Part shown: positions 7,775 through 11,504 of the stretch, piece after piece
Position numbering within the stretch: position 1 is the stretch's first letter
How the letters are laid out: every line of letters begins with the position of its first letter
NCBI GenBank assembly: GCA_945861935.1
Contig: CAMAVU010000006.1
Coordinates: 1-44,513, forward strand
Direction of reading: 5' to 3'
Length of the DNA: 44,513 bases
DNA from: Bifidobacterium breve
GTDB lineage: Bacteria; Actinomycetota; Thermoleophilia; Miltoncostaeales; Miltoncostaeaceae
Made by a program: the position numbers and the translations under genes
Notes under the pieces: generated by a model
Seen by the model: only the letters and a program-made list of their open reading frames with translations
What the model was told of the DNA's origin: nothing
The model's database searches: none

Positions 7775-10212
<2,438 letters not shown>

Positions 10213-10220
10213 CCAGCGGT

Positions 10221-10287
10221 ACCCCGGTGCCAGGCACTTAACAGAAGGAGCCTCCGGCTCCTTCTGTTAAGTGCCTGGCACCGGGGT
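10221..10287. repeat. Composite perfect hairpin, copy 1
   Basis: A 32-bp perfect inverted repeat (10221-10252 / 10256-10287) with loop TCC. The outer 20 bases, CCGGTGCCAGGCACTTAACA and its complement, are the same as in copy 2. The inner stem (GAAGGAGCC / GGCTCCTTC) is unrelated to that of copy 2 but is also perfectly paired. It lies between the ahcY promoter and copy 2. Confidence 0.9.
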
Positions 10288-10325
10288 TCGGAATGCAGGA
10301 GGCCCGAGGCGCCGACTCCGAACCC
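10284..10325. repeat. Bridging inverted repeat between the two hairpins
   Basis: GGGTTCGGA (10284-10292) pairs with TCCGAACCC (10317-10325). The left arm overlaps the last four bases of hairpin copy 1, so the two structures exclude each other in part. Confidence 0.6.
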
Positions 10326-10340
10326 AGGAAACGTCGAACC

Positions 10341-10403
10341 CCGGTGCCAGGCACTTAACAATGGGGGGCCGAAGGCCCCCCATTGTTAAGTGCCTGGCAC
10401 CGG
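10341..10403. repeat. Composite perfect hairpin, copy 2
   Basis: A 30-bp perfect inverted repeat (10341-10370 / 10374-10403) with loop GAA. It has the same outer 20-base arms as copy 1 but an inner stem ATGGGGGGCC / GGCCCCCCAT. It abuts the stop codon (10406-10404) of the isomerase gene with no base between, so it can act as that operon's terminator, though no T run follows. Confidence 0.9.
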
Positions 10404-11504
10404 TCAAATGGATCCGCTTTCCCCGGCTCTCAGGCGCTGGTTGCCCGTCGTGGCCAGACCCGCCTTCAGGCGGCCGATGCTGTCCACCGGGTCCGGGTCC
10501 ACGCGGCGCAGGCATGCGGCGTAGAGGGAGATGTAGTCGCCCAGCAGCACGAGGTCGATCACCCGTGCGAGGGGGCTGTCGCCCTCACCCTCGATGGTCA
10601 GTACGTCGGTCACCGAGGGACTGATGATCTCGCGGGTCAGGGCAAGACGGCGCTCCACCTGGCGGTGCTGGCGCGGGTCCCGCAGCATGACCACCTGCGC
10701 CTGCTCCCCGAATGTGCCGGGCTGCTCCCAGCCCACGATCTCGTTGTGGTTCATCTCGGGGAGGGTGGCCCAGAACGCGGGCTGCTTGGCGTTCTCATTG
10801 AACTGGCACTTCCAGCGGAATGCGACACCCGACGTGACCTCGGCGCCGTAGATGACCGGCACCTTGTCGTACAGGCGCATGGCCAGTTGCTTTGCCGGGT
10901 TGGCCCCTGTGGGGCGTGCGGGGCCATAGGCGTCGATGGCGGCCGCGATTGCGACCCGGGCGGCGTCCAGTTCCTGATCCTGCGGAGGGATGACCCCGAT
11001 TCGCGCGAGGATGACCACCACGGGAATGAGCATGTGCAGCAGCGCCATGCGCGGCTGCAATCCCGAGGGGATGGGCAGCATCGGCATGCCATGCCTGCCG
11101 TGGTACCACGTGTCCATCTTGCCGCCGCTCGTCACGGCGATGGCCGGCGCCTCACGCTCCAGCGCCTGCATCGCGGCGGTGAGGGTCTCCTCGGTCTCGC
11201 CCGAGTACGACATCAGCAGCGCGAGTGTGTGGTTGTCGGCCCAGCCCGGCAGGTAGTAGCCGCGGTGCACGAACAACGGCACCCGCGTGCGCTCGTAGTA
11301 CATGCTGGCGATGAGGTCCCCGGCCACCGCCGACCCGCCCATGCCACAGATGAGAACGTTGGCGATGGTCTCGCCGGGGAACGGGATGTCCAGCGCCTCG
11401 GCCCCGGCACGCGCCGTGTCGAAGACATCCACCGACGACGCAATCCCGTCGATGAGGCCCGCGCGGTCCACGGCGAGCACCTCGGGAAGGTCCAGTTCCT
11501 CCAT
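10404..11504 (-). CDS. Bifunctional phosphoglucose/phosphomannose isomerase (SIS domain)
   Basis: 366 aa from ATG 11504 (MEELDLPEVLAVDRAG). Two SIS sugar-isomerase halves are visible: VLICGMGGSAVAGDLIASMYY and LLMSYSGETEETLTAA in the first, and the family's C-terminal PGI/PMI region with FNENAKQPAFWATLPEMNHNE in part. The family interconverts glucose-6-P or mannose-6-P with fructose-6-P. It is the last gene of the polysaccharide operon; its ATG overlaps the upstream stop by one base (TGATG). Next to a nucleotidyltransferase it probably feeds mannose-6-P or glucose-6-P into nucleotide-sugar synthesis. A phosphomannomutase, needed in between, is not in the window. Confidence 0.9.
   Translation of the reverse strand: MEELDLPEVLAVDRAGLIDGIASSVDVFDTARAGAEALDIPFPGETIANVLICGMGGSAVAGDLIASMYYERTRVPLFVHRGYYLPGWADNHTLALLMSYSGETEETLTAAMQALEREAPAIAVTSGGKMDTWYHGRHGMPMLPIPSGLQPRMALLHMLIPVVVILARIGVIPPQDQELDAARVAIAAAIDAYGPARPTGANPAKQLAMRLYDKVPVIYGAEVTSGVAFRWKCQFNENAKQPAFWATLPEMNHNEIVGWEQPGTFGEQAQVVMLRDPRQHRQVERRLALTREIISPSVTDVLTIEGEGDSPLARVIDLVLLGDYISLYAACLRRVDPDPVDSIGRLKAGLATTGNQRLRAGESGSI

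Follow-up and report, generated by a model that had tools for sequence, protein, structure and literature searches.

Introduction

REPINs are built from two inverted conserved repeats around a less conserved spacer that still pairs and shows compensatory changes; they occur in tandem clusters and as extragenic copies, and are accompanied by their own RAYT gene with matching repeats. REPIN spacers are already known to change in sequence without losing their pairing (PMC3116915); the cause is not settled. In TIRtrons, or TIRYTs (PMC3733652; subclass 2.1 in PMC6006769), a RAYT-like gene lies between terminal inverted repeats that are partly self-complementary; these repeats are also found as genomic dimers and prefer convergent and co-directional junctions. 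In published REPIN and TIRtron systems the repeat type matches the enzyme clade (PMC3116915, PMC3733652). Template switching within hairpins, finally, is known to yield perfect stems, paired changes and inversion of the spacer (PMC8794818, PMC8604942). It has been described for RNA genes and yeast coding sequence, and the literature that we searched held no report of it in RAYT-linked bacterial elements such as those considered here.

Here, we follow up two hairpins in a window of 44,513 nucleotides, the whole stretch of DNA analysed, using pattern searches, profile searches and comparison of orthologous junctions. We consider it likely that these hairpins are non-autonomous, RAYT-linked inverted-repeat elements of the REPIN or TIR type, belonging to one genus of aquatic Actinomycetota, that were spread by a RAYT, had their cores rewritten by template switching and survived at gene ends. 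The REPIN features listed above all recur: inverted repeats and spacer form one hairpin, the many copies are extragenic and in part clustered in tandem, spacers pair and show compensatory changes, and a cognate RAYT is flanked by the same repeats in G028, G035 and G038. The TIRtron features recur as well, namely the partly self-complementary terminal inverted repeats around a RAYT-like gene, the dimers that form a repeat family in the genome, and the choice of junctions. Unlike in REPINs, the short cores bear no resemblance to one another and in many cases pair perfectly, and exchange, reversal and the gain or loss of arms can be traced at orthologous sites across species.

Results

Two perfect hairpins upstream of ahcY

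The hairpins lie in the intergenic region between a gene for a SIS/phosphoglucose-isomerase-type protein (bacterial phosphoglucose isomerase C-terminal domain; 10404..11504, start set by homology) and the downstream gene ahcY, encoding adenosylhomocysteinase (8905..10173), both on the minus strand. Element 1 (10221..10287) has a 32-bp stem, the halves of which (10221-10252 and 10256-10287) are 100% complementary, and element 2 (10341..10403) has a 30-bp stem (10341-10370 with 10374-10403); both have a 3-nt loop. No perfect hairpin elsewhere in the window comes near them in length, and their folding z-scores range from -12 to -16 against shuffles. As the original prediction had it, the two share an outer arm of 20 nt, CCGGTGCCAGGCACTTAACA, with four mismatch-free copies at the hairpins and none expected in 100 shuffles. 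It runs on the plus strand at 10224..10243 and 10341..10360, and on the minus strand at 10265..10284 and 10384..10403, the last copy directly adjoining the stop codon of the upstream gene. The inner stems were correctly described too: they measure 9 and 10 bp, are unrelated to one another, and pair fully around their 3-nt loops, with GAAGGAGCC-TCC-GGCTCCTTC as the core of element 1 (10244..10264) and ATGGGGGGCC-GAA-GGCCCCCCAT as that of element 2 (10361..10383). A unique spacer (10288..10340) separates the elements and, together with the facing arms, could alternatively pair over 26 bp (10265-10290 with 10335-10360).

The same prediction held that the cores look like ordinary terminators, of which we saw no indication. 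A consensus scan gave no terminator-like site at 10221-10403, and the cores are followed only by TGTTAAG, with no T-tract. An assembly artefact was considered for the pair and rejected, as the pair sits well inside its 44.5-kb contig and the independent assemblies of sister species share the design.

One base separates element 1 from a block at 10203-10219 (CCGCTGGTAGCCTGCGG, minus strand) that is recognisable upstream of ahcY throughout the genus. Across the genus, the stretch 10174-10219 ahead of ahcY is conserved; it comprises a GCTGGTAGCCT block flanked by an inverted repeat and is possibly a promoter or leader. An Rfam scan of the window, this stretch included, matched no family.

The arm is a repeat family of gene ends

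Pattern searches, on which all our genome-wide statements about arms rest, found 45 exact copies of the 17-nt GTGCCAGGCACTTAACA in the window's own assembly, G000 (1.6 Mb in 78 contigs), so the arm is not confined to the window locus. Some of these stand alone, others in inverted pairs or in direct tandem, and many lie at contig ends. Several contigs (L032, L049, L051, L216, L217, L218) end in head-to-tail arrays of arm plus half-core with periods of 29-45 bp, which are either real tandem arrays or assembly loops; arrays at contig ends, where the assembly stops, were given no weight in our conclusions.

The arm encloses the palindrome GTGCC-A-GGCAC. Its exact 18-mer had no match in any of the 41 other family genomes searched. 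Close variants, mostly GGTGTCAGGCACTTAACC, stand in inverted pairs in sister species of the genus, and arms of this type bracket variable cores in eight other species; inverted pairs with other cores were found in G023, G024, G027, G028, G030, G033, G035, G037 and G038. Inverted arm pairs were found in none of 11 other genera tested, and literature searches for the arm sequence returned nothing relevant. Both the GTAG tetranucleotide foot and the GGGGWSAS motif are missing from the arms, which sets them apart from GTAG-type REPs and from many, not all, described TIRtrons.

The elements keep close to gene ends, as 71 of 85 neighbouring gene ends lie at most 24 nt from one. By a simple open-frame rule, 24 elements are in convergent, 35 in co-directional and 3 in divergent settings, the rest being unassigned; REP families prefer the same gene-junction settings (PMC3733652).

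RAYT genes with matching repeats

A PF01797 profile search for RAYT genes, as the original prediction had proposed, detected a single gene in G000 and a further 14 across the other species of the genus. In the sister species G028, G035 and G038, a RAYT sits between inverted arms of the TTAAC type; the three proteins form one clade (support 0.96), with their genes at one orthologous locus. Since inverted arms flank a RAYT in three species, we assign the elements to the non-autonomous REPIN/TIR type. The G028 RAYT scores 45.8 bits against PF01797 (Y1_Tnp; cut-off 23), a cut-off that the G000 RAYT also exceeds, and 78.6 bits against NF047646, to which the G000 protein scores 69.8 bits (curated cut-off 80). 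Pfam gave no extra C-terminal domain on the RAYT.

The sole RAYT of G000 (L055:6680-7470, contig 63) is flanked by a different palindrome, GGTGACAGTCACC, with GGGGWSAS beside it, and a second RAYT of G028 has this repeat type. As its repeat is of another family, we rejected this gene as the cognate enzyme of the window arms; a RAYT between TTAAC arms was not found in G000, an incomplete genome. A third repeat type, GGTGCCAGACACC, with variable centres of 3 nt, flanks the RAYTs of G034 and G040 (L236, L235) and recurs in both genomes. Repeat type and enzyme clade thus go together, in line with the published systems. One arm pair in G028, 969 bp apart (L193:594-1580), was examined as a second autonomous element and discarded: the enclosed frame resembles uracil-DNA glycosylase, a label given by eye and not by profile search, and not a transposase.

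Cores pair across unrelated sequences

The cores vary between sites. Our catalogue holds 68 elements, a few of which are nested readings of one array. In 26 of the 68 the core is 37 nt long and built on a common, only partly paired skeleton, GTCACG...GCGCGCG; this related core seems to travel together with the arms. Short or perfect cores were compared in 29 elements (26 from the catalogue, with a core of at most 35 nt including arm ends, and three read at contig edges). There, 143 of 162 mirror positions pair; 2000 shuffles gave 49 on average and 70 at most. Of the 29 cores, 18 are perfect, with 16 distinct sequences among them. The 37-nt class changes on both sides in 5 of 23 pairs, and its covariation score is above 500 of 500 shuffles and above every slid version, a control that keeps the relatedness between rows.

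The same junction in different species

Comparison of flanking genes gave 17 orthologous sites with an element in at least two species; at 13 of them at least one pair agrees in both flanks, and the remaining sites rest on a single flank (contig end or differing second neighbour). Between species, the core at a shared site is replaced, altered by a paired change or, in four cases, reversed. At site 1, where a pyruvate kinase gene faces an SMR-type gene, the core is ATCGGGC..GCCCGAT in G028, GTCGGGC..GCCCGAC in G033 and G035, and GTTCGTCAGAAC in G030; a single paired change separates G028 from G033. G023 has a shortened palindrome within the same flanks as G033, arm remnants are left in G024, G027 and G032, and six species (G025, G026, G029, G031, G034, G036) have a gap of 12-69 nt with no arms. 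No core match was found in the element-free species at this site.

At sites 5, 7, 9 and 12, the core matches its counterpart more closely when it is reversed; for site 12 it is the exact reverse complement over 25 nt, with flanks and arms unchanged. At sites 1, 3 and 4, both the core and the arm ending of G000 (TTAACA) differ from those of its relatives (TTAACC arms, other cores), which may be replacement by a newer wave. This comparison between species takes in sites that are occupied, empty or reduced to remnants; it showed neither excision nor a new insertion, and no target duplication is evident. At site 15 of G033 (L255:744-806), the core GGGGCGCGCGACCTGGGCTAACCCC repeats the sequence immediately beyond the element (gcgcgcgacctgggctaacccc); it looks as though adjoining DNA had been copied in with core length unchanged.

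Site 17, a junction of convergent genes, carries the terminator-like hairpin GAAGGGCCCGC-NNNN-GCGGGCCCTTC. It is arm-free in G029 and G040, has one arm in G030 and decayed arms in G031, and is enclosed in G033 by two arms at unequal distances. In G028, two flush arms surround the core AAAGGG...CCCTTT and the whole is one perfect hairpin. This site bears directly on the idea that arms settle around a pre-existing hairpin, and the comparison of species would fit gain or loss of arms.

The original prediction had offered two explanations: that the arm is a mobile or spreading module that settles around existing terminator hairpins, or that cores are replaced as units. Spreading is favoured by the repeated arm and by the RAYT between arms in three sister species. 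Settling is favoured by the site 17 hairpin with no, one or two arms; against it, relatives show no arm-free version of either core at the window site, and it does not hold in general, as in 26 of 68 elements arms and core seem to move together and site 1 is empty in some species with no matching core there. Replacement as units agrees with cores that differ between species at the same site. Both explanations thus hold in part, because one hairpin exists with and without arms and elsewhere a related core seems to be borne by the arms.

Discussion

What keeps the two halves of an element so exactly matched while the core changes? Our preferred explanation combines spread by a RAYT with template switching. 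The RAYT would act on single-stranded arm hairpins and thereby spread the arms, and copies would have survived mainly just behind stop codons. During replication, template switching within a hairpin could make its halves exact mirror copies, and could reverse, shorten or swap the core; in some cases, a hairpin already present at the insertion place may have ended up as the core. The outcome would be a single long hairpin in which the shell is constant and the core can change; the cell probably tolerates it or uses it at the 3' end, in termination or mRNA protection. The perfect pairing and core reversal in the elements fit template switching because these are its known products, and the species differences reported here match what it predicts (PMC8794818, PMC8604942), namely perfect stems, paired changes of several bases and inverted spacers. 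Counting against the explanation as a whole, G000 yielded no RAYT between TTAAC arms, neither excision nor new insertion was observed, no target duplication is evident, and the arms have neither the GTAG foot nor the GGGGWSAS motif of described REP and TIR families. We put forward only tentatively the more specific sequence in which RAYT-linked arms settle around pre-existing gene-end hairpins, giving long perfect hairpins, and template switching then acts on the core where it lies, turning it over, perfecting its pairing and replacing it.

Could the elements instead be structures that the host makes at its 3' ends, terminators or mRNA stabilisers in which selection on the RNA keeps the pairing and the link to the RAYT is incidental? 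The strong preference for places just behind stop codons would be expected then, as would paired changes in short and 37-nt cores, the conserved terminator-like hairpin at site 17 and the occupation of the same sites in several species. However, RAYT genes carry the same arms, and near-identical arms at dozens of unrelated sites imply that a sequence has spread, and not a shape alone. The empty and remnant states at site 1 and the lack of a T-tract in the window hairpins also speak against a host structure, and selection for pairing alone does not predict reversed cores that are partly unpaired. We regard this explanation as improbable. A resemblance to integron attC sites was considered too: both arm variants agree, in ACTTAAC / GTTAAGT, with the R-box consensus RYYYAAC / GTTRRRY, and a variable centre lies between conserved arms. 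Cassette arrays were not seen, though, and no integron integrase rose above the model cut-off in genomes of the genus, the weak scores being the same size as in 14 of 14 control genomes; we give the attC reading almost no credence.

A fresh insertion of the whole element, arms and core together, at a preferred site would account for species-specific cores by transposition and not by local mutation. The G000 elements at sites 1, 3 and 4, with a TTAACA ending and cores of their own against the TTAACC arms of relatives, are what such replacement would leave, and the 37-nt cores do form a family. Yet at site 12 the core alone is reversed between the same flanks and arms, G028 and G033 differ at site 1 by one paired change only, and at site 17 the hairpin is kept while the arms differ. 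We regard replacement by fresh insertion as rather unlikely, and RAYT spread followed by template switching within the hairpin remains our preferred explanation.

If arms do settle around pre-existing gene-end hairpins and the cores are then rewritten, each such gene end in the genus would bear a cassette whose mobile shell is fixed and whose core can be exchanged. Relative to elements of the REPIN and TIRtron kind, what is new is the well-resolved exchange of cores at conserved sites and arms without the GTAG foot or GGGGWSAS. Sister species have element sites in common, so that they can be compared directly for a paired change, a core reversal and the gain or loss of arms. Two questions thereby become testable, namely whether REPIN evolution is driven by template switching in hairpins and whether gene-end hairpins and mobile arms become built into each other. 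As a minor observation, on contig 34 of G000 (L045 / L308) the pyruvate kinase frame runs into an arm, and the stop codon of the frame seems to come from that arm (TTAACA).
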